Made by a program: the position numbers and the translations under genes. Below, piece after piece: positions 24,724-58,926 of a stretch of 64,000 nt of DNA. The notes below the pieces were generated by a model. The model had not been told where the DNA came from. It saw only the letters and a program-made list of their open reading frames with translations, and searched no databases. Position 1 is the stretch's first letter. Each line of letters starts with the position of its first letter. Location: positions 124,001 through 188,000 of the forward strand of contig NZ_PVTF01000015.1 of the NCBI RefSeq assembly GCF_003002815.1. The letters run 5' to 3'. The stretch is from Umezawaea tangerina. Its GTDB lineage: Bacteria; Actinomycetota; Actinomycetes; Mycobacteriales; Pseudonocardiaceae.

Positions 24724-24764
24724 ACAAGGGGCCGCCCACCGGATTCCGGTGGGCGGCCCCTTGT
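24724..24764. terminator. Shared bidirectional terminator, rbpA/ppm1
   Basis: A perfect 19-bp stem with a three-base loop (24743-24745) lies in the 71-base gap between the convergent rbpA and ppm1 stops. The stem ends are A/T, giving short T runs on either strand. Its length, perfection and position make it the clearest terminator in the window. Confidence 0.88.
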
Positions 24765-24776
24765 GCCGTGCGGGTG

Positions 24777-25574
24777 CTACTTGGCGGTGCCGCTGGGCGT
24801 CTTGGCCTTGGGGGCGAACACGGAGCGCAGCTGGTTGCCGCGGCGGCGCAGGCCCCACTTGGTGACCCGGATCAGGGCCTCGCGCACGACGTTGCCGCTC
24901 ATCTTCGACTCGCCGATCACGCGGTCGGTGAAGGTGATGGGCACCTCGACGATGCGGAAGCCGAGCTCGTGGGTGCGCCACGACAGGTCGATCTGGAAGC
25001 AGTAGCCCGACGAGGCCACGTTGTGCAGCTTGAGCTTGCGCAGCACCTCGGCCCGGTACACCCGGAAGCCCGCGGTGATGTCCTTGATCGGGGCGCCGAG
25101 CGCGATCCGCGAGTACAGGTTCGCGCCGCGGGAGAACACCTCGCGGGACTTGGGCCAGTTCACGACGCTGCCGCCGGTCACGTAGCGCGAGCCGATCACC
25201 AGGTCCGCGTTCGCGGCGGCGTCGAGCATCCTGGGCAGGTCCTCGGGGGCGTGCGAGCCGTCCGCGTCCATCTCGACGAGGAACTCGTACCCGCGCTCGA
25301 GGCCCCAGCCGAAGCCCGCGACGTACGCCGCGCCGAGTCCCGCCTTCTCCGTGCGGTGCAGCACGTGGACGCGGTCGTCCGCGGCCACCATCCCGTCCAC
25401 GACCTGTCCGGTCCCGTCCGGGCTGCCGTCGTCGACCACGAGCGCGTGCACCTGCGGCAGAGCCGCGTGCAGCCGCTTCACGATCTTCCCGATGTTGTCC
25501 CGCTCGTTGTAGGTCGGGATCACCACCAGCACCGGCCCGAGCTCGCGGTCAGGCTGCGCCTGCTGGTCCGTCAT
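24777..25574 (-). CDS. Polyprenol monophosphomannose synthase
   Basis: This 265-residue GT2 glycosyltransferase is of the DPM1 type: VVIPTYNERDNIG (nucleotide site), VVDDGSPDGT, the metal-binding EMDADGSHAPEDLP, GSRYVTGG, DITAGFRVYR, and the conserved lipid-acceptor segment ITFTDRVIGESKMSG. It transfers mannose from GDP-mannose to polyprenyl phosphate, supplying the donor for periplasmic protein O-mannosylation and lipoglycans. It lacks the membrane domain that is fused in Mycobacterium tuberculosis Ppm1; that domain is encoded by the upstream lnt gene, whose 3' end overlaps this gene by 26 bases. Confidence 0.93.
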   Translation of the reverse strand: MTDQQAQPDRELGPVLVVIPTYNERDNIGKIVKRLHAALPQVHALVVDDGSPDGTGQVVDGMVAADDRVHVLHRTEKAGLGAAYVAGFGWGLERGYEFLVEMDADGSHAPEDLPRMLDAAANADLVIGSRYVTGGSVVNWPKSREVFSRGANLYSRIALGAPIKDITAGFRVYRAEVLRKLKLHNVASSGYCFQIDLSWRTHELGFRIVEVPITFTDRVIGESKMSGNVVREALIRVTKWGLRRRGNQLRSVFAPKAKTPSGTAK

Positions 25575-27162
25575 CCGTTTCCTCCTCGCCGGGGCCCCGC
25601 TCGGGCTCCGGACGCGCTCCTCGTCGTTTCTGGGTAAGGCTGAACGCCACGGCCAGCAGCCCGAGTGCGGACATCACCCACTCGGGCCAAGCACCAAGCC
25701 GAGTCGCCAGCGTAGTCTGCCCGCGCAGCGGCAACCTCTCGACCAGTGCCGCCGGGGTGAACATGCCCGTGCTCTGGCTCACCGAGCCGTCCGGGTGCAC
25801 GATCGCGCTGACCCCGCTCGTGGCCGCCACGACCACGGCCCGACCGTGCTCGACGGCGCGGATCCGCGACATCGAAAGCTGCTGGTAGGTCATCTCGGTG
25901 TACCCGAAAGTGGCGTTGTTCGTCGGGATCGCGATCAGGTTCGCCCCGGTCCTGACGTTCTCCCGGACGATCTCGTCGAACGCGACCTCGTAGCACGTGT
26001 CCAGCGACACCTTGGCCGGTCCCATGGTGAACCCGCTGGGGTCGGTGCCGGGCTGGAAGTTGTTCGCCCGGTCGACCAGCTTGGTGAAGATCCGGAAGAA
26101 CGACCGGTAGGGCATCGTCTCGCCGAACGGCTGGAGCTTGCGCTTCGTGTACTGGTCGGTCGGCCCCTTCTCCGGGTCCCAGAGGATCACCGTGTTGCGC
26201 GGCAGCCCGTCGTCGCCCAGCACGACCGCGCCGACCGCGATCGGCGCCTTGATCGCCTGGGCCGCCTGCTGGATGCGCAGGGCGGCGTCGGGGTTGCGGA
26301 ACGGGTCGATGTCCGAGGAGTTCTCCGGCCAGATCACCACGTCCGGCTGCTCCTGCTTGCCGTCCGCCACGTCCCGCGCCAGCTCCTCCGTGCGCTTCAC
26401 GTGGTTGTCCAGCACCGCCCGCCGCTGCGAGTTGAAGTCCAGCCCCGCGCGCGGCACGTTGCCCTGGATCGCCGCCACCACGGCCGTGCCCTCGCTCGCG
26501 TCGGTCCCCACCACCCCGTTCGCCGCCAGTCCCGCCGCCAACGGCACGACCACCAGCAGCCCCGACGGCCAGTCCCGGACGTTCCGCACCAGCCCGGCCA
26601 CCCCGAACCCGGTCAGCACCACCGCGAACCCGATCAGCGGCGCCCCGCCCAACGCCGCCAACGGCAGGTACCAGCCCTCCGGCTGCCCGAACGCGATCTT
26701 CCCCCACGGGAAGCCGCCGAACGGGAAGACGCCGCGCAGCGCCTCGTCCGCCACCCACAGCAACGCCCCCCACAGCGGTGCCAGCGGCAGTTTCGACACC
26801 ACCGCCATGGCGGCGGTACCCAGCCCGATCAGCGCCGCGCAGGCCAAGCTCAGGGGCAACCACGCGATCGCCCCCACGAACTCCCCGGTCCACGCCAACA
26901 ACGGCACCAGGAACCCCAACCCGAACAACACCCCGAACCCGAACCCCGCCCGCGCCCGCCGCCCGTGCAGCACCCACCCCAGGAAGGCGAAGCCGATCGG
27001 CGCGAGCCACCAGAGGGTGCGCGGCGGGAAGCTCAGGTAGACGAGCACACCGCCCGCCGCGGACAGGGCGGCACGAAGGAGAAGACCACGCACGTCACGC
27101 TCACGACGGCTGGGCGGGATATCGGCGACGGGAACATCCGCCACCACAGGGTTTGCGACCAC
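25549..27162 (-). CDS. lnt: Apolipoprotein N-acyltransferase
   Basis: The protein has about 537 residues: six or more N-terminal membrane helices (about 30-220), then a periplasmic nitrilase-fold domain with the Glu-Lys-Cys triad (E280 in VVIWPENSSD, Lys in YTKRKLQPFGE, Cys in LDTCYEVAF), and a final membrane helix. It N-acylates the diacylglyceryl-Cys of lipoproteins, several of which are encoded in this window. The overlap with the mannose synthase gene mirrors the two-domain Ppm1 fusion of mycobacteria. The start is uncertain; the GTG at 27162 lacks a ribosome binding site, and in-frame GTGs follow at 27147 and 27144. Confidence 0.9.
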   Translation of the reverse strand: MVANPVVADVPVADIPPSRRERDVRGLLLRAALSAAGGVLVYLSFPPRTLWWLAPIGFAFLGWVLHGRRARAGFGFGVLFGLGFLVPLLAWTGEFVGAIAWLPLSLACAALIGLGTAAMAVVSKLPLAPLWGALLWVADEALRGVFPFGGFPWGKIAFGQPEGWYLPLAALGGAPLIGFAVVLTGFGVAGLVRNVRDWPSGLLVVVPLAAGLAANGVVGTDASEGTAVVAAIQGNVPRAGLDFNSQRRAVLDNHVKRTEELARDVADGKQEQPDVVIWPENSSDIDPFRNPDAALRIQQAAQAIKAPIAVGAVVLGDDGLPRNTVILWDPEKGPTDQYTKRKLQPFGETMPYRSFFRIFTKLVDRANNFQPGTDPSGFTMGPAKVSLDTCYEVAFDEIVRENVRTGANLIAIPTNNATFGYTEMTYQQLSMSRIRAVEHGRAVVVAATSGVSAIVHPDGSVSQSTGMFTPAALVERLPLRGQTTLATRLGAWPEWVMSALGLLAVAFSLTQKRRGARPEPERGPGEEETDDGPAGAA

Positions 27163-27305
27163 CCGATGAGGGTACGAGCCCAAGGTCACGCCCCGGTGTG
27201 GTCGTCCCCCGCACACCCACCAGAACAGGACTCACCCGACAAAGCCCCCACGAAAAGCACTGACAAGAACGGATCGCACCACCACAAACAGACAACGAAG
27301 GCCTT

Positions 27306-27667
27306 CACCCGACGCGCAGCGAGGCATCCCGACCCGGCGCAGCCGCCACCTCGCATCCGGCGCGGAGCGCCCGCCCGCTTCGTCCGACGCGCAGCGAGGA
27401 TGCCCCGTCCAACGGCGAAGCCGAGGATCCCCACGACGGGCGCAGCCCGGCCCCGCGCACCCGGCGCGGAGCGCCCCACCGCCTTGTCCGCCGCGAAGCA
27501 AGGATGCCCAGTCGGCGACAGCCGATGCCTGAGTCGGACGCAGTCCGATACTGGCGAAGCCAGATCCCCCTCCGCCCCCGATACACAGCGCCCTCCTGTC
27601 GCACCCCTTCTTGTCAAGATAGCTTTATCGTCTTGACAAGAAGGGGTGCGACATTGAGACAATTGCG
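27306..27667 (-). repeat. Palindrome/hairpin-array element, copy 1
   Basis: This non-coding element is read on the minus strand. It comprises a 16-base conserved leader (27667 to 27652), a long palindrome (27597-27653), an AGGAGGG-GTG block (just below 27597), then about 290 bases of consecutive short stem-loops (for example CTGGC-TTC-GCCAG, TCGGAC-GCA-GTCCGA). The array contains a homologous unit twice, at 27352-27410 and 27456-27514 (104-base period). A second copy in opposite orientation lies at 57420-57640. Open frames run through it in several registers but are not conserved between copies. It fills most of the gap between lnt and the pspC-like gene. Confidence 0.75.
27597..27653. repeat. 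Long perfect palindrome, copy 1
   Basis: Perfect 23-bp arms flank an 11-base loop (27620-27630). The inner ten base pairs (CTTGTCAAGA / TCTTGACAAG) and the loop are shared with the palindrome at 57434-57488. The outer arm differs completely in sequence yet is fully self-complementary. As RNA it would form a very stable hairpin immediately before an AGGAGGG. Confidence 0.9.
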
Positions 27668-27678
27668 CTGCGGGGTCT

Positions 27679-27754
27679 GGGCTTCGCTACGCGGTCAGGC
27701 CTTGGCTACTCGGTCAGGACTTCACTACGCGGCCAGGCCTTCGCCACGAGGCCA
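27679..27754. repeat. Four tandem 19-bp repeats
   Basis: Four contiguous 19-base units start at 27679, 27698, 27717 and 27736. Each follows the pattern GGNCTTNGCTACNCGGTCA with a few substitutions. They abut the leader of palindrome element copy 1. The 19-base period (not a multiple of three) and the lack of a gene argue for non-coding DNA. No equivalent array flanks the second element copy. Confidence 0.8.
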
Positions 27755-28097: not shown

Positions 28098-31010
28098 GTG
28101 GCGGTGCGGCGCTGGGAATTCCTGGTGCTCGGACCGCTCGAGGTTCGGGACGGCGGGCGGGTGGTGGCCATCCGCTCCGCCAAGCAGCGCGTGCTGTTGT
28201 CCGCGTTGCTGGCCAGGCCGAACGAGCCCGTGCACGTCGACGAGCTCATCGACCACCTGTGGGGTGCCGGCGCGCCGGGTGCGGCGCGCGGCACCCTGCA
28301 GACGTACGTGATGCGCCTTCGGCAGTTCCTGGACGACGGGTCGGCGCGGGAGGTCGTGCGCACCACCGCGACCGGGTACTCGATCCACGTCGACTCCGAC
28401 CGGCTCGACCTGACCAGGTTCCGGGAGCTGCGAGCACGGGCGCGGGCGGCCGAGGAGGCCGGGGACCTGGACGCGGAGTCCGCGTTCCTGGACGAGGCCG
28501 TGCGGCTGTGGCGGGGGCCCGCGTTCGACCAGGTCCCGTCCAGGCGGGACGGGAGCGCGGACTCCGACCGGTTGGACGAGCAGCGGTGGGAGGCGGTCGA
28601 GCGCCGCAACGAGGTGGAGCTGCTGCTCGGCAGGCACGAGAGCCTGGTCGACGACCTGTTGGCGCTGGTCGCGCTGCACCCGTTGCGGGAGCGCTTCTGG
28701 GCGCAGCTGATGTCCGCGCAGCACCGCGGCGGCCGCCAGGCGCAGGCCCTCGACACCTACCGGCGGGCCCGCGAGGTGCTCGCCGAGGAGCTGGGCATCG
28801 AGCCCAACGCCGAGCTGCGCAGGCTCCACCAGGCCGTGCTCGCGGGGCGGACCGGTCCCGCGTGGCTGCCGCCCGCGGTGCCCGACTTCACCGGGCGGGC
28901 CGCCGAGGTCGAGGCGATCACGACCGGGCTGCGGGGCGTGTGGACGATCACCGGGCCCGGCGGTGTCGGCAAGACGACGCTGGCCGTGCACGTGGCGCAC
29001 CTGGTGCGCGCCGACTACCCCGACGGCCAGCTGTACCTGAACCTGCGCGGCACCGGGGTCGACCCGACCGAGGCGCTGGACCGGCTGCTGCGCGGCCTCG
29101 GGGTGCCCGGCAGCGCGATCCCGGCGTCGCTGGACGACCGGATCGGCCTCTACCGCGACCGGCTGGCCGACCGGCGGGTGCTGGTCGTGCTGGACAACGC
29201 CGCCGAGGAGGCCCAGGTCCGCCCCCTGCTGCCCGGAACGCCGACAGCGGCCGTGCTGGTCACCAGCCGGGCCGCGCTGGCGGGGCTGGAGGGGGCGCGG
29301 GTCGTCCCGCTGGGCGTGTTCCCGGCCGAGGACGCGCTGGGCCTGCTCCGCGGTGCGCTGGGCGCGCGGCGGGTGGACGCCGAGCCCGAGGCGGCGCGCG
29401 AGATCACCGGGTACTGCGGCAGCCTGCCGCTGGCGCTGCGCATCGCCGCCGGTCGGCTGGTGGCACGCCCGCACTGGCGCCTCTCGCAGCTCGCCGGCAG
29501 GTTGGAGGACCAGCGCGGCAGGCTCGACGAGCTGCGGGTGGGCGACCTGGACGTGCGGGCCAGCCTGGCGCTGAGCCACGACGGCCTGACCCCCGCGCGG
29601 CGGCGGCTGTTCGGGCTGCTGGCGCGGCTCGACGCGGTGGACTTCTCCGCGAGCACGGCCGCTCCCCTGCTGGACGTCGGGCTGGACGAGGCCGAGGAGC
29701 ACGTCGAGGCGCTGGTGGACGCGCGGCTGGTCGACCTGGCCGGGCGCGACGTGCTGGGGCGGCAGCGGTACCGGCTGCACGACCTGGTGCGGGTGTTCGG
29801 CCGCGAGGTCGCCGACGACGACCCCGCTCCCCTGCGCAGGCTGTTCGACACGTGGTGCGACCTGGCCGAACGGGTCGACGCCGACCTGCCGCAGGAGGCG
29901 CTGCGGCTGCCGGTGCGGCCGCGGCCGGACTCCGAGCTCGCCGACCGGCTGCTGGCCGACCCGGTGGCGTGGCTGGACGCGGAATGGCTCGGCATCCGGG
30001 CCGCGGTGGCGCAGGCGGCCGCGCTGGGGATGGCCGAGCAGGTGTGCGGGCTGGTGATCGCGACGGGGGCGTTCTGCGACCTGCGGGCCCGGTTCGACGA
30101 CTGGGCGTGGCTGATCGAGGTGGCGCTGCCGTTCGCGACCTGGCGCACCGAGGCGGTGCTGGTGCAGCAGCGCGGGATCCTGCGGGTGCGGCAGCACCGG
30201 TTCGACGAGGCCGAGGCGGACTTCGACCGCGCGCGGCTGGGCTTCGAGTCGGTCGGCGACGACTGGGGCTCCGCGTACGCCTGGTACGCGTCGGGGTGGA
30301 TGCACGAGTGGCGCGGGCGGCCGGAGCGGGCGCGCGAGTGCCACCGGCAGGCGACGGCGCGGTTCCGGACGTCGGGCAACGCGCTCGGCGAGGTCGAGGT
30401 GCTGGCGTCGTTGGGGGCGATCGCGCGGCGCGCGGGCGACTTCGACGAGGCGCGCGGGCACCTGACCCGCTGCCACGACCTGGCCACGGTCCTGGACGAC
30501 GAGCGCGGGACGTTCGGCGCCGTGCTGGAGCTGGGGCGGCTGCTGCGGTTCACCGGCGAGCTGGAGGCCTCCGCCCACCGCCTGGCCACCGCGCTCACCA
30601 TGGCCGAGCGGATGGGCGACCCGGACATGGCGGCGATCATCCGGCTGTTCCTGGCGGACGCGCTGCTGCGCGCCGGGCACGTGGAGGCCGTCGACGAGCT
30701 GGTGCGGCAGGCGCACGAGTACCTGGAGGAGCACGACGACCGGGTCGGCCTGGTGTGGTCGTGGCGGCTGCTCAGCGCGCGTTCCGCCGACCCCGTGACC
30801 GCGCTGGGGTGGGCGGGACGCGCGCTGGACGGGGCCGAGGAGCTGGACCTCCCGCCCGAGGTGGCGCGGTCGCTGTGCACGCTCGGGTACGCGCTCGCCG
30901 GCGTCGGGCGGCACGACGAGGCGGTGCGGGCCTGGGAGCGGGCCGCGGCGCTGTTCGTCGAGGCCGGTTTCCACGCCGAGGCGGCCGAGGTGCCGGTTCA
31001 GGCCAGGTAG
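28098..31010 (+). CDS. AfsR/SARP-type regulator (BTAD, NB-ARC, TPR)
   Basis: This regulator of about 970 residues has an OmpR-like winged helix (about 5-95, LGPLEVRDGG), a bacterial transcriptional activation domain (about 100-250, ending in REVLAEELGIEPNAELRRLH), an NB-ARC ATPase (about 265-520; P-loop GPGGVGKTT, Walker B VLVVLDNAA, CGSLPLALRIAAG) and a long C-terminal TPR-like region. AfsR-type proteins activate specialised metabolism or development after ATP-dependent oligomerisation. The start is a GTG at 28098, or a GTG two codons later. No biosynthetic cluster is adjacent, so it may be a pleiotropic regulator. Its stop overlaps the convergent permease stop by 13 bases. Confidence 0.9.
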   Translation: MAVRRWEFLVLGPLEVRDGGRVVAIRSAKQRVLLSALLARPNEPVHVDELIDHLWGAGAPGAARGTLQTYVMRLRQFLDDGSAREVVRTTATGYSIHVDSDRLDLTRFRELRARARAAEEAGDLDAESAFLDEAVRLWRGPAFDQVPSRRDGSADSDRLDEQRWEAVERRNEVELLLGRHESLVDDLLALVALHPLRERFWAQLMSAQHRGGRQAQALDTYRRAREVLAEELGIEPNAELRRLHQAVLAGRTGPAWLPPAVPDFTGRAAEVEAITTGLRGVWTITGPGGVGKTTLAVHVAHLVRADYPDGQLYLNLRGTGVDPTEALDRLLRGLGVPGSAIPASLDDRIGLYRDRLADRRVLVVLDNAAEEAQVRPLLPGTPTAAVLVTSRAALAGLEGARVVPLGVFPAEDALGLLRGALGARRVDAEPEAAREITGYCGSLPLALRIAAGRLVARPHWRLSQLAGRLEDQRGRLDELRVGDLDVRASLALSHDGLTPARRRLFGLLARLDAVDFSASTAAPLLDVGLDEAEEHVEALVDARLVDLAGRDVLGRQRYRLHDLVRVFGREVADDDPAPLRRLFDTWCDLAERVDADLPQEALRLPVRPRPDSELADRLLADPVAWLDAEWLGIRAAVAQAAALGMAEQVCGLVIATGAFCDLRARFDDWAWLIEVALPFATWRTEAVLVQQRGILRVRQHRFDEAEADFDRARLGFESVGDDWGSAYAWYASGWMHEWRGRPERARECHRQATARFRTSGNALGEVEVLASLGAIARRAGDFDEARGHLTRCHDLATVLDDERGTFGAVLELGRLLRFTGELEASAHRLATALTMAERMGDPDMAAIIRLFLADALLRAGHVEAVDELVRQAHEYLEEHDDRVGLVWSWRLLSARSADPVTALGWAGRALDGAEELDLPPEVARSLCTLGYALAGVGRHDEAVRAWERAAALFVEAGFHAEAAEVPVQAR

Positions 31011-54669: not shown

Positions 54670-56313
54670 TCAGGAGGCGCGGAACCAGCGGCAGCCGTAG
54701 GGCGGGAGGGTGATCTTGGCGGTGCCGTTCTTGAGCACCTTGGTGGTCCCGTCCTGCAGCTGGTCCTCCAGTCGCTCGAAGTCCTTCATCGGCAGCTTGA
54801 CCGTGACCTCCGCGTCACCCAGGTTGTGCACGGCGACAACGGTTCCGTCGGCGTCGCACCGGTGGGCGAGGACGGCGGGGTTGTCGACGTCGAGGATCTG
54901 GAAGTCGCCCCAGGCGAACTCGGGGCAGTCGCGGTAGCGCTCGACGAGCAGGCGGATCCACGACAGGAGGGAGTCGGGGTCGCGGTGCTGCTGGTCGACG
55001 TTGACGTGCTTGGGCGAGAACTTGCCCTCGACGACGGGGCCGGGCAACGCTTTCGCGTCGGCGGTGGAGAAGCCGCCGTTGACGCCCGCGTCCCACTGCA
55101 TCGGGGTGCGCACGGCCAGCCTGCCCTCGGCGGCGAGGTTCTCGGCCATGCCGATCTCCTCGCCGTAGAACAGGACCGGTGTGCCGGGCAGGGAGAACAG
55201 CATGCTGTACACCATGCGGATGCGGCGCTGGTCGCCGCCGAGCATCGACGGCAGCCGCCTGCGCAGCCCGCGGTCGTAGAGCTGCATGTCCTTGTCCGGA
55301 CCGAAGGCCTCGAAGACCTCCTTGCGCTCGTACTCGGTCAGCTTGTCCAGGGTCAGCTCGTCGTGGTTGCGCACGAACGTGGCCCAGTGCGCGTCGCGCG
55401 GCGGCTTCGGGCGTTCGGTCAGCGAGCGGGCGAGCGCGCCGGAGTCCTGGCGCGCCAACGAGAGGTACATCTGCTGCATGCCGATGAAGTCGAAGCACAT
55501 CGTCAGCTCGTCGCCGACGCCGTCGGCGTGGCCGAAGAACTTCATCGCGTCGGCGTAGGGCAGGTTGACCTCGCCGAGCAGGACGCCCTCGCCGTTGCGG
55601 CGGCTCAGGAACGCGCGCAGGTCGCACAGGTAGTCGTGCGGGTCGGGCAGGTTCGCGGCGTCGAGCTGGCCGTCGGTCTCCAGCAGGAACGGGACCGCGT
55701 CCACCCGGAAGCCGGACAGGCCGAGCTCCATCCAGAACCCCATGATGCGCACGATCTCGTCGCGCACCTCGGGGTTGGCGACGTTGAGGTCGGGCTGGTA
55801 GCGGTAGAAGCGGTGCAGGTAGTACTCGCCGGTGGGCTCGTCCAGCTCCCACAGGCTGGTCTCCTGGTCCGGGAACACGACGCCCTGCGGCCCGTCCTCC
55901 GGCGGCTCCTCGGCCCACACGTACCAGTCGCGCTTTGCCGAGTCCTTGCTGGAACGGGAATCCGCGAACCACGGGTGCTGGTCGGAGGTGTGGTTCACGA
56001 CCAGGTCGGCGATGACGCGGATGCCGCGGTCGCGCGCGGTCCGCATGAACTCGACGAAGTCGCCGAGCGTGCCCAACCTCGGGTCCACGCCGTAGAAGTC
56101 GGTGATGTCGTAACCGTCGTCGCGGTCGGGCGAGGGGTAGAACGGCATGAGCCACAGGCACGTCACACCGAGCTTGTGCAGGTGGTCGATGCGCTGGGTG
56201 AGCCCGCGGAAGTCGCCGTGGCCGTCGCCGTCCGAGTCGGCGTAGGTCTCGACGTCGAGGCAGTAGACGACGGCGTTCTTCCACCAGACGTCGGCGGTGT
56301 TGGTGAGCTTCAC
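54670..56313 (-). CDS. GH13 alpha-amylase family enzyme (trehalose synthase/alpha-glucosidase-like)
   Basis: This 547-residue protein has the GH13 barrel motifs: LADVVVN-type region I (VIADLVVNHTSDQHPWF), region II GFRVDAVPFL (nucleophile Asp), region III LLGEVNLP (acid Glu) and region IV VRNHDELTLD, plus YDITDFYGVDPRLGT near the N-terminus. The closest style is trehalose synthase and related alpha-glucan-acting enzymes. No maltokinase partner is present, so the activity stays open. The GTG start at 56313 overlaps the preceding LLM-oxidoreductase stop by four bases and has a GGAGGT upstream. Confidence 0.87.
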   Translation of the reverse strand: MKLTNTADVWWKNAVVYCLDVETYADSDGDGHGDFRGLTQRIDHLHKLGVTCLWLMPFYPSPDRDDGYDITDFYGVDPRLGTLGDFVEFMRTARDRGIRVIADLVVNHTSDQHPWFADSRSSKDSAKRDWYVWAEEPPEDGPQGVVFPDQETSLWELDEPTGEYYLHRFYRYQPDLNVANPEVRDEIVRIMGFWMELGLSGFRVDAVPFLLETDGQLDAANLPDPHDYLCDLRAFLSRRNGEGVLLGEVNLPYADAMKFFGHADGVGDELTMCFDFIGMQQMYLSLARQDSGALARSLTERPKPPRDAHWATFVRNHDELTLDKLTEYERKEVFEAFGPDKDMQLYDRGLRRRLPSMLGGDQRRIRMVYSMLFSLPGTPVLFYGEEIGMAENLAAEGRLAVRTPMQWDAGVNGGFSTADAKALPGPVVEGKFSPKHVNVDQQHRDPDSLLSWIRLLVERYRDCPEFAWGDFQILDVDNPAVLAHRCDADGTVVAVHNLGDAEVTVKLPMKDFERLEDQLQDGTTKVLKNGTAKITLPPYGCRWFRAS

Positions 56314-57269
56314 GAGCGGACCTCCGGGAGGACCTTGGCGCCGAAGGCGTCGATGAACGGGTCCAGTTCCTGGCCCACGTGGTGCAGGTAAAGCTCGTCG
56401 AAACCGAGGTCGGCGTACTCGCGCAGCCACGCCGCGTGCCTGCCGAGGTCGGAGGAGATGTTCACGACCTCGGCCACCTTCGCCGGGGTCACGTCAGCGG
56501 AGGCCACGTCGAACGCCTCGGCGGTGTCGAGGTCCCAGCACACCGGCGGCGCGAACACGTTGCTGCGCCACTGCTCGTGCGCGACCCGCACGGCGGTGTC
56601 CTCGTCCGGGTCCCAGCTCAGGTGGACCTGCAGGTGCAGCTTCCCCCGGCCGCCCGCGTCGCGGTAGGCGTCGACCATCCGGCGCAGCTGCTCGGGCGGC
56701 GCGTTGACGGTGATCAGCCCGTCGGCCCACTCCGCGCACCACCGGGCGGTCTCCACGCTCACGGCGGCACCGATCAGGGGCGGCGGCTCGTCCGGCCTCG
56801 TCCAGACCCTCGCCCGGTCCACGGTCACCAGCCCGTCGTGGCTGACCTCCTCGCCGGCGAGCAGGGCGCGGATGATGTCGACGCACTCCCGCAACCGGGC
56901 GGTGCGGAGCCCCTTGCGGGGCCAGGCGTCACCGGTGATGTGCTCGTTGCTGGCCTCACCGGTCCCCAGAGCGGCCCAGAACCGGCCGGGGTACATCTCG
57001 GCGAGCGTGCCGATGGACTGCGCGATGATCGCCGGGTGGTAGCGCTGACCAGGGGCGTTGACGACGCCAAACGGGAGGCTGGTGGCCTCCAGGGCGGCAC
57101 CCAGCCAAGACCAGGCGAAAGTGGACTGGCCCTGGCGTTCGCTCCACGGGGAGAAGTGGTCGGAGCACATCGCGGCGTCGAAACCGGCCTGCTCGGCGTG
57201 GCGGACAGCGGACAGGGACTCGGAAGGGTGGACCTGTTCGTGGGAGGCGTGCACTCCGTACGACGTCAT
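56310..57269 (-). CDS. Luciferase-like (LLM) FMN oxidoreductase, TIGR03885 type
   Basis: This 319-residue TIM-barrel luciferase-like monooxygenase family member has AEQAGFDAAMCSDHFSPWSERQGQS, TSLPFGVVNAPGQRYHPAIIAQ, LGTGEASNEHITGDAWP and PLIGAAVSVETARWCAEWADG. These fit the TIGR03885 group, described as probably using FMN rather than F420. Its gene is typically beside a GH13 enzyme, as here with a four-base overlap; the biochemical reason for that pairing is not established. Palindrome element copy 2 lies just upstream. Confidence 0.85.
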   Translation of the reverse strand: MTSYGVHASHEQVHPSESLSAVRHAEQAGFDAAMCSDHFSPWSERQGQSTFAWSWLGAALEATSLPFGVVNAPGQRYHPAIIAQSIGTLAEMYPGRFWAALGTGEASNEHITGDAWPRKGLRTARLRECVDIIRALLAGEEVSHDGLVTVDRARVWTRPDEPPPLIGAAVSVETARWCAEWADGLITVNAPPEQLRRMVDAYRDAGGRGKLHLQVHLSWDPDEDTAVRVAHEQWRSNVFAPPVCWDLDTAEAFDVASADVTPAKVAEVVNISSDLGRHAAWLREYADLGFDELYLHHVGQELDPFIDAFGAKVLPEVRS

Positions 57270-57419
57270 GGGAGGGCGGGTACCCGGAATGGGGTGGGTT
57301 TAGGCGGGTGGGGGTGATTTGGTGGTTGGGGAGTGTGTGGGGCGCGGTGTGTGGCTACCTGCCCTCGGTGAAGCCTGCTTCCGGCCCTCTCACCCTCTGA
57401 GGAAGCCCAGCCCCCGGCG

Positions 57420-57640
57420 CGCGATTGTCTCAATGCTTGATCTTGCTTGTCAAGACGGTGAAGCTGTCTTGACAAGCAAGATCAAGCAGGAGGGCGCTGT
57501 GGATCGGGGGCAGAGGGGAAGTCTGGCTTCGCCAGCATCAGGCTCCGCCTGACTCAAGCATCGGACTTCGTCCGACAAGGCCCCAGGCGCTTCGCGCCGG
57601 ATGCGCGCTGGCGGGCTGCGCCCAACGTGTATGGGGTGGC
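57420..57640 (+). repeat. Palindrome/hairpin-array element, copy 2
   Basis: This is homologous to the element at 27306-27667 but in the opposite orientation. It has a conserved leader (57420-57435, 15 of 16 bases identical), a long palindrome (57434-57488), the AGGAGGGCGCTGTG block (57488-57501), then about 140 bases of short stem-loops (CTGGC-TTC-GCCAG, CAGGC-TCC-GCCTG, CGGAC-TTC-GTCCG, GGCGC-TTC-GCGCC, GGGC-TGC-GCCC). The array is shorter than in copy 1, lacking its 104-base internal duplication. It fills most of the 440-base gap between the LLM oxidoreductase and GH8 genes; I see no gene there. Confidence 0.78.
57434..57488. repeat. Long perfect palindrome, copy 2
   Basis: Perfect 22-bp arms flank an 11-base loop (57456-57466). 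The inner stem is identical to copy 1, and the loop differs at three positions, each an A/G change. The outer ten base pairs are unrelated to copy 1 but perfectly self-complementary. Confidence 0.9.
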
Positions 57641-57711: not shown

Positions 57712-58926
57712 TTATGGGGTGGTGAAGTTGCCGGTCAGGATGATCAGGACTTGTACCTGGATGCCGGTGCCGTAGTAGTCGGTGCTGTCGAGCGACACCG
57801 TGGAGATTCGGGCCCACAGCTTGTCGAGCCAGGCTTGGCTGTTGGGGTCGCTCATCGCCGCGACGGCGAAGGGGGCGGTGAAGCAGGGGTGTTCGCCGGG
57901 TTCGGTGGTGGTGCCGGTGAGGGTGTAGCCGCTGCTGATCTTGGTGGGGTCGTTGCCGGTCTTGGACTTGATCCAGGTGGTCATCTTCGCCACTTGGGCC
58001 TTGGCCGCGCTGCCGGAGACCGTGACGGCGTCCACGCCCAGGCGCCACGGGTCGCGGCAGGCGTTCCAGCTGTACTTGCCGTCGTACTCGCTTTCCAGGA
58101 AGTTGGCCGGGGCGGGTTTCGGGGTGGTGTTGGTGTTGACCACGAAGTCGGGGAGCAGGCCGGTGGTGGGGGCGTACTGGGACTGGAGCTGGGTCACCGC
58201 GGTCTCCTGGCGGGTGCGGACCTGGTCCCAGAACGGGTCGCCGGTGGCGGCCTTGAACGCGCGGAGGTGGCCGGGCATCCAGTCGGAGGAGCGGGAGCTG
58301 TTCTTGTACTGGGAGTCGTTGCCCCAGTCGCCCAGCAGGGGGAACTTGGTGCTGTTGTTGACCTCCGCGCGCTTGATGCCGTTGATGATCCGGACGGCCT
58401 CGGCCTTGTAGTCGTAGGTGCCGGTGGTGCTGCCCCACTGCTTGTCGGCGATCAGCAGGCCGTAGGCGATCTCCAGGTCGCCGTCGGTCGCGGAGTCGCT
58501 TCCGTTGACGCTCTTGCAGTTCGCGTCCTGCTCGGCGGCGTGCAGGTCCTTGTCGTTGACTGACGGGTGGGCCTTCACGAACTTGAGGATGCCGTCGAAG
58601 ATCTTGCGGGCGTCCGGGTCCTTGCCGGCCATCAGCGCGGCGATCGTCATGCCGTACCCCTCGCCCTCGGCGACGAAGGAGTGGTCGGCGTCCTTGGACA
58701 GCACGGCGTAGGTGCCGGTGCCGCACTTGGTGGTGAGGAAGTTGGCCTTCCAGAAGGCGTAGTACTTGTTCAGGACCGAGTCCTGGGTGGACTGCGCGAC
58801 CGACGGCCGGAGCGTGCCCGGCACGTAGGCCGACGCCGTGACGGCCGCCTTGGCGCCACCGCCCGTGACGACCACACCGCCGACCAGCGCCGCGGACACG
58901 GCCAGCGCGCGTACTGCTCTGTTCAT
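57712..58926 (-). CDS. Secreted glycoside hydrolase family 8 enzyme
   Basis: This 404-residue protein has a signal peptide (about 1-27, AKA/AV cleavage) and a GH8 (alpha/alpha)6-barrel. The acid Glu lies in AEGEGYGM, the family signature is SATDGDLEIAYGLLIADKQW, and SSDWMPGHLRAFKAATGD and ESEYDGKYSWNACRDPWRLGVDA are typical. GH8 members are endoglucanases, licheninases, xylanases or chitosanases, and the subgroup cannot be settled by eye. A GGAGG six bases before the ATG supports the start. A palindromic AGGAAACTTTCCT lies 75 bases upstream as a probable operator. Confidence 0.9.
   Translation of the reverse strand: MNRAVRALAVSAALVGGVVVTGGGAKAAVTASAYVPGTLRPSVAQSTQDSVLNKYYAFWKANFLTTKCGTGTYAVLSKDADHSFVAEGEGYGMTIAALMAGKDPDARKIFDGILKFVKAHPSVNDKDLHAAEQDANCKSVNGSDSATDGDLEIAYGLLIADKQWGSTTGTYDYKAEAVRIINGIKRAEVNNSTKFPLLGDWGNDSQYKNSSRSSDWMPGHLRAFKAATGDPFWDQVRTRQETAVTQLQSQYAPTTGLLPDFVVNTNTTPKPAPANFLESEYDGKYSWNACRDPWRLGVDAVTVSGSAAKAQVAKMTTWIKSKTGNDPTKISSGYTLTGTTTEPGEHPCFTAPFAVAAMSDPNSQAWLDKLWARISTVSLDSTDYYGTGIQVQVLIILTGNFTTP

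Follow-up and report, generated by a model that had tools for sequence, protein, structure and literature searches.

The REP/REPIN elements with RAYT are among the described systems closest to the hairpins analysed here, as both are high-copy extragenic palindromes. The subfamilies of REP elements are described as having alternative complementary stem residues, and G-T pairing is said in the same account to be frequent in GTAG repeats (PMC3733652). In yeast, inversion of a hairpin tip has been reported as an outcome of template switching (PMC8604942). The family described below shares with the REP subfamilies, as they are presented in that account, the occurrence of complementary stem changes (PMC3733652), but differs in other respects. 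REP elements measure 20-40 bp and the present hairpins about 115 nt; neither a GTAG nor a CGTC tag stands beside the hairpin in a 93-row alignment inspected by eye; and G-T pairs are rare (17 of 3122 cells in 223 unique arm pairs), unlike in the GTAG repeats of that account. Mobilisation by RAYT was rejected because PF01797 was found in 0 of 12 element-rich genomes, in a search whose control recovered PF01797 in 5 of 14 known genomes.

Two hairpins in the window and the anatomy of the element

The window, which is the whole stretch of 64,000 nucleotides analysed, contains two copies of the element, A and B, and these are its only loci matched by model R2 at E values up to 1; the opposite strands of both copies also score with R2, as palindromes do. 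Their features are as follows.

57403..57519, plus strand: copy A, whole hairpin element (model R2 match, E 5.1e-23)
57411..57416, plus strand: copy A, basal helix, left strand CCCCCG
57505..57510, plus strand: copy A, basal helix, right strand CGGGGG
57434..57446, plus strand: copy A, variable left arm, 13 bp
57447..57475, plus strand: copy A, core, i.e. invariant inner stem and loop, 29 nt
57476..57488, plus strand: copy A, variable right arm, fully complementary to the left arm
57522..57640, plus strand: short-hairpin array 3' of copy A
27566..27684, minus strand: copy B, whole hairpin element (model R2 match, E 2.2e-22)
27671..27675, minus strand: copy B, basal helix, left strand CCCCG
27575..27580, minus strand: copy B, basal helix, right strand CGGGGG
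27640..27653, minus strand: copy B, variable left arm, 14 bp
27611..27639, minus strand: copy B, core, i.e. invariant inner stem and loop
27597..27610, minus strand: copy B, variable right arm, fully complementary to the left arm
27306..27565, minus strand: short-hairpin array 3' of copy B

The two copies proved to be as a preliminary description of this DNA had them, with a common inner stem (TTGTCAAGA/TCTTGACAA) and an 11-nt loop carrying three A/G differences, and its central observation, that the outer arms are unlike between A and B yet perfectly paired within each, was confirmed. The sequence CAGGAGGGCGCTGTG stands 3' of the hairpin in both. When folded as single-stranded DNA, both strands of each copy were more stable than 200 of 200 shuffles (z -8.6 to -9.7). 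Two genes on the minus strand flank copy A, one for a luciferase-like monooxygenase (56310-57269), the other for a protein of glycosyl hydrolase family 8 (57712-58926). The neighbours of copy B are divergent, with an apolipoprotein N-acyltransferase gene on the minus strand (25549-27216) and a gene for a BTAD regulator on the plus strand (28098-31010). The names are taken from Pfam, and the gene limits from a rough ORF caller together with the ORF list. Near 24742 stands another perfect hairpin, unrelated to the family and terminator-like in appearance, whose arms are 20 bp long.

Each element is a hairpin of about 115 nt, assembled from the outside inwards of a basal helix (CACCCCG/CGGGGTG and covarying forms), conserved internal-loop strands (ATTGT or AGTGT on the left, an ATCGGGG type on the right), a variable stem (13, 14 or 17 bp long in the window genome), an inner stem that does not vary (TTGTCAAG) and a loop whose type is conserved, GRTRAAGCT or GGGAAAGAT. 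The conservation of the basal helix, the internal strands and the tip supports the earlier suggestion of a constraint on the hairpin. Within 350 bp of 129 copies in the window genome, 683 of 994 three-base loops of the short hairpins on the 3' side, as a raw count, have the sequence TNC (GNA when the opposite strand is read). The loops of these short hairpins resemble those of the packed palindromes of Streptomyces telomeres.

Copy number, spread and placement

The core occurs at 177 places in the window genome when up to 3 mismatches are allowed, whereas its reversed control occurs at none; 129 distinct copies out of these places were examined in detail. With up to 2 mismatches, the window's own type of core was found, among 60 genomes including its own, only in that genome and in one other (G002), and its exact form gave 0 matches in named genomes. 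A related core, TCAAGGC-GGGAAAG-GCCTTGA, is present in at least 119 stretches of named genomes; the titles among the 80 matches listed are Amycolatopsis, Umezawaea and Actinokineospora, all Pseudonocardiaceae, and eight genomes hold 7 to 86 copies each of this pattern. Covariance model R1 matches 92 of 390 genomes of the family and 9 of its 46 genera, with copy numbers that are lower bounds as at most nine candidates were scored per genome. The search of relatives with a covariance model, advised when the two copies were first noticed, thus returned many further copies. Across the class, R1 matches 8 of 394 genomes and R2 matches 3 of 394, the window genome being counted in both.

The possibility that these are chance palindromes was rejected on two counts. 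In 1.25 Mb of sequence from the window genome, 71 of the 78 perfect hairpins with arms of at least 20 bp contain the family core, a proportion biased upward by the choice of loci around copies, and 199 kb of base-shuffled sequence gave 0 such hairpins.

Several observations lie at the edges of this distribution. In five genomes of a genus from another family (g107; L328, L331-L334, L336 and L338), hairpins of similar design have ATTGTCT and TATCAGGGGG strands and differing stems. They match R1 weakly and have no R2 match, and we treat the likeness as a weak lead since R2 matched only the 3 class genomes, its own included. A single match with an exact GGC-type core (L330/L406, E 2e-13) in genome G464, also of another family, may reflect transfer or contamination. 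At a contig end of Amycolatopsis circi (L275, near 2476-2498), a 45-bp perfect palindrome surrounds the tip and is possibly an assembly artefact. A second repeated hairpin, of GTGAAGGGCTCCTTGAGG type, was seen by eye in the same intergenic regions at L183, L285 and other Amycolatopsis loci.

Copies are concentrated at convergent junctions, which hold 68 of 124 copies in the window genome against a background of 148 of 825 gene pairs, and 72 of 136 copies in relatives against 130 of 606; the other placements in the window genome are tandem (49/124) and divergent (7). By a rough ORF caller, no copy lies inside a called ORF (0/129 in the window genome, 0/185 in relatives), which led us to reject a coding role, and association with one particular gene was rejected as neighbours differ between copies. 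The convergent enrichment and the absence from called ORFs would both suit a bidirectional transcription terminator, or a boundary between convergent genes, whose stem is free because only its stability matters. Yet both window copies lie elsewhere than at convergent junctions, and the upstream gene is at a median distance of 132 bp for convergent copies in the window genome and 186 bp in relatives. By eye, the right flank in the 93-row alignment is G-rich with no T-run after the hairpin, and at one junction (L389) a smaller hairpin also stands just past the stop codon. Such a terminator would also leave the invariant tip and base unexplained, and we regard this reading as decidedly unlikely.

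The direction in which elements point was compared with that of replication in eight genomes, using rounded chromosome lengths and a terminus assumed to lie opposite dnaA, a test that bears on element orientation and not on mutation rate. Elements point with the fork in 39/43 cases in G165, 63/86 in G186, 27/35 in G192 and 26/29 in G209 (the first 29 of 72 places listed), and show no clear bias in G202 (9/15), G220 (9/14) and G226 (4/7). G002 is mixed, with 42/71 pointing with the fork for one core and 13/41, i.e. the opposite, for the other. The four fork-biased genomes belong to a single genus (g16), as does G194, whose locus L205 matches an Amycolatopsis record without a difference over 3114 bp.

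Pairing of the arms and change at orthologous sites

Among 223 unique arm pairs collected with no pairing filter, we counted 1090 double-changed Watson-Crick cells, 17 G-T, 58 A-C and 87 other mismatches; 151 pairs are perfect over 14 bp and 72 are imperfect, mostly at one to four positions. The preliminary description had held that a lack of further copies, or further copies with unpaired arms, would reduce the pattern to chance; what was found is a large set of copies, most of them perfectly paired. Pairing differs by subtype. GAC-core arm pairs (n=92) have 388 double-changed cells, 6 G-T, 8 A-C and 14 other mismatches, with 79 of 92 perfect, and GGC-core pairs (n=131) have 702, 11, 50 and 73, with 72 of 131 perfect and many of the imperfect pairs sharing a C-C mismatch at one place. 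With only this proportion of GGC-core pairs perfect, arm correction is therefore not universal. Light mismatches, counted in arm pairs with at least 6 of 14 positions paired, show no bias towards wobble (12 G-T, 17 A-C, 38 other).

The covariation check proposed at the outset was carried out with shuffles and slides, and covariation lies well above both. In the 93 copies that have distinct arms, pairing holds in 95.9% of 2867 cells, double-changed cells number 529 against 149.7 +/- 11.8 when shuffled (0/500 shuffles as high), and covariation is 0.471, compared with 0.122 after shuffling and no more than 0.080 after sliding. Two of the five covariation measures in these copies fail to exceed the shuffles, namely pairs changed on both sides (17 vs 15.9; 82/500) and pair types (48 vs 44.8; 41/500). 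For 36 hand-chosen copies, covariation is 0.581 against 0.138 shuffled and at most 0.131 slid, with 45 pair types against 47.0 (415/500), and stem columns 41-52 of these copies, which come from several genera, contain 200 double-changed cells, one single-sided and 7 unpaired. The alignments differ in how they were chosen: A1, the seeds of R1, takes 49 of the 93 rows by hand with most imperfect rows left out; A2 takes all 93 rows; and A3 takes 36 copies out of 38 chosen by hand, without L392 and L041, its pairing being biased upward because, from one set of 30 loci, 15 were taken and all six with short perfect stems were omitted (L193, L200, L202, L203, L205 and L208).

Evidence for RNA structure is drawn mainly from matched changes in stems, and a structured noncoding RNA or RNA 3'-end element, with a stem varying by ordinary compensatory mutation under selection for pairing, has to be weighed here. 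Stems drifting through wobble intermediates should look different from these arms, in which wobble or one-sided states are very few. The covarying basal helix and the conserved internal-loop strands and loop do argue for an RNA, as does the excess of A-C cells (G-U on the bottom strand) over G-T, an excess that comes partly from one lineage. An RNA reading is nevertheless at odds with the tips, which are inverted in place relative to the base in 3 of 336 copies (18 undecided), and an Rfam search of the window at gathering scores matched no family. Taken together, we consider it unlikely.

The element persists at orthologous sites, and there its two arms change jointly. Our comparison began with 33 rows, became 32 rows at 24 sites once the row pairing L023 with the window was dropped as a paralogue, and retained 26 ortholog pairs (20 sites) with flanks of at least 85% upstream and 80% downstream. 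The arms are identical in 3 pairs (all from one site), changed and perfect in both members in 19, and changed with a mismatch in 4; the changed positions comprise 88 paired double changes, 4 one-sided changes and 3 changed on both sides and unpaired. The core is identical in 23 of the 26. The wholesale matched replacement of the stem proposed from the two window copies is thus borne out in many copies and at orthologous sites. At three junctions the element is shared across genera, between peptidase M17 and LysR genes (L009/L193), Rv2179c-like exoribonuclease and DAHP synthase genes (L231/L393), and DUF5130 and ERAP1_C protein genes (L199/L383), and 9 of the 16 first-examined G002 elements have an element at the matching site of the window genome, few loci of which were compared.

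Outer arms differ by 31.5% in these pairs against 10.1% in the mostly genic BLAST flanks, and a claim that arms change three times faster than their surroundings, true only of that comparison, was dropped. Measured against intergenic strips 70-170 bp away, arm change is 0.315 versus 0.197 and 0.311, and is the higher in 14 of 26 pairs. The stem sequence is therefore about as free to drift as the DNA around it, while its arms stay paired, and exchange between copies is not needed to explain the speed.

Subtypes differ at a single orthologous site in three cases (L047/L086, L180/L171 and L031/L106), which would be in keeping with repeated insertion of a non-autonomous mobile element into the same sites, where it would displace the resident copy. 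High copy number, extragenic placement and the fork orientation of some genomes point the same way, as do 23 candidate empty-site rows, against 123 filled, among the loci compared. However, in the 3 of these 23 rows that were aligned the whole intergenic region differs and there is no target duplication, and a search limited to Y1 among mobile enzymes found Y1 transposase absent from 12 of 12 element-rich genomes. Re-insertion of this kind is in our judgement most unlikely.

The variable stem had also been put forward as an identity tag, and this idea failed. Of the 167 GAC-core copies, 29 carry one and the same left arm, and 19 of the 167 GGC-core copies carry another; unlike arms are found in 23 of 26 ortholog pairs. 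The stem therefore identifies neither an individual locus nor, when species are compared, a site.

A proposed copying mechanism and its nearest parallels

The reading we somewhat favour is that of a dispersed extragenic hairpin family of Pseudonocardiaceae, held at fixed sites with a constant tip and base and a free stem, whose arms are kept matched by hairpin-templated copying. The hairpin would form at replication and one arm would be recopied from the other, by template switching or quasipalindrome correction; because such a hairpin lets one arm template the other, we place the matching of the arms, provisionally, at the level of DNA. Recopying of this kind would fix a mutation on both sides and could invert the tip. 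Hairpin-templated copying predicts matched arms, paired changes of several bases and inverted tips, and all of these are seen. Stem versions probably also move between copies, as suggested by arms common to several loci and by copies with two different known arms (L029, L135 and L147). We infer both the copying and the exchange steps, no copying event itself having been observed. The few one-sided intermediates, the lack of G-U enrichment, the inverted tips and the copies with two different arms all support the copying mechanism that had been suggested from the window alone. The hairpin might be retained because it forms a structural boundary at replication forks or at the ends of genes, a role that is plausible and the weakest of these steps.

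A further version appears doubtful to us, in which some factor reads the constant tip and base and stem versions spread from site to site as alleles, one arm entering from a different copy and the other being remade to match it. The hairpin would then replicate as a unit between fixed addresses, not by transposition, and with a fixed fork direction in some genomes.

The design had been thought to belong to no named family, and neither Rfam, for the window, nor the literature supplied one: a search on repeats and RNA motifs of these bacteria, covering few subscription journals, found no paper on this hairpin family. Antibiotic-producing actinobacteria thus harbor a conserved hairpin family for which the searches made returned neither a name nor a function. 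Its many paired changes, few intermediates and site-by-site comparison of sister species offer a natural test of DNA copying against RNA selection.

Three further systems invite comparison with this hairpin family. Hairpin repeats of sponge mitochondria are likewise dispersed and intergenic, with two types described that differ by a few complementary substitutions; in that description the stems are conserved and the loops vary (PMC2800124), whereas the present family has a variable outer stem and a conserved loop. The packed palindromes of Streptomyces telomeres, as portrayed in one report, are packed like the short-hairpin arrays of the window genome (PMC4513846), but the latter are chromosome-internal, occur at many places and are attached to a large hairpin. 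As a mechanism, template switching fits the present observations, since perfect arms, multi-base paired changes and inverted tips also mark the template-switch and quasipalindrome mutations reported elsewhere (PMC8794818, PMC7202029, PMC8604942). In the accounts given by those papers it is a mutation process acting in unrelated sequences, whereas here it would act throughout one dispersed family with a constant tip and base.
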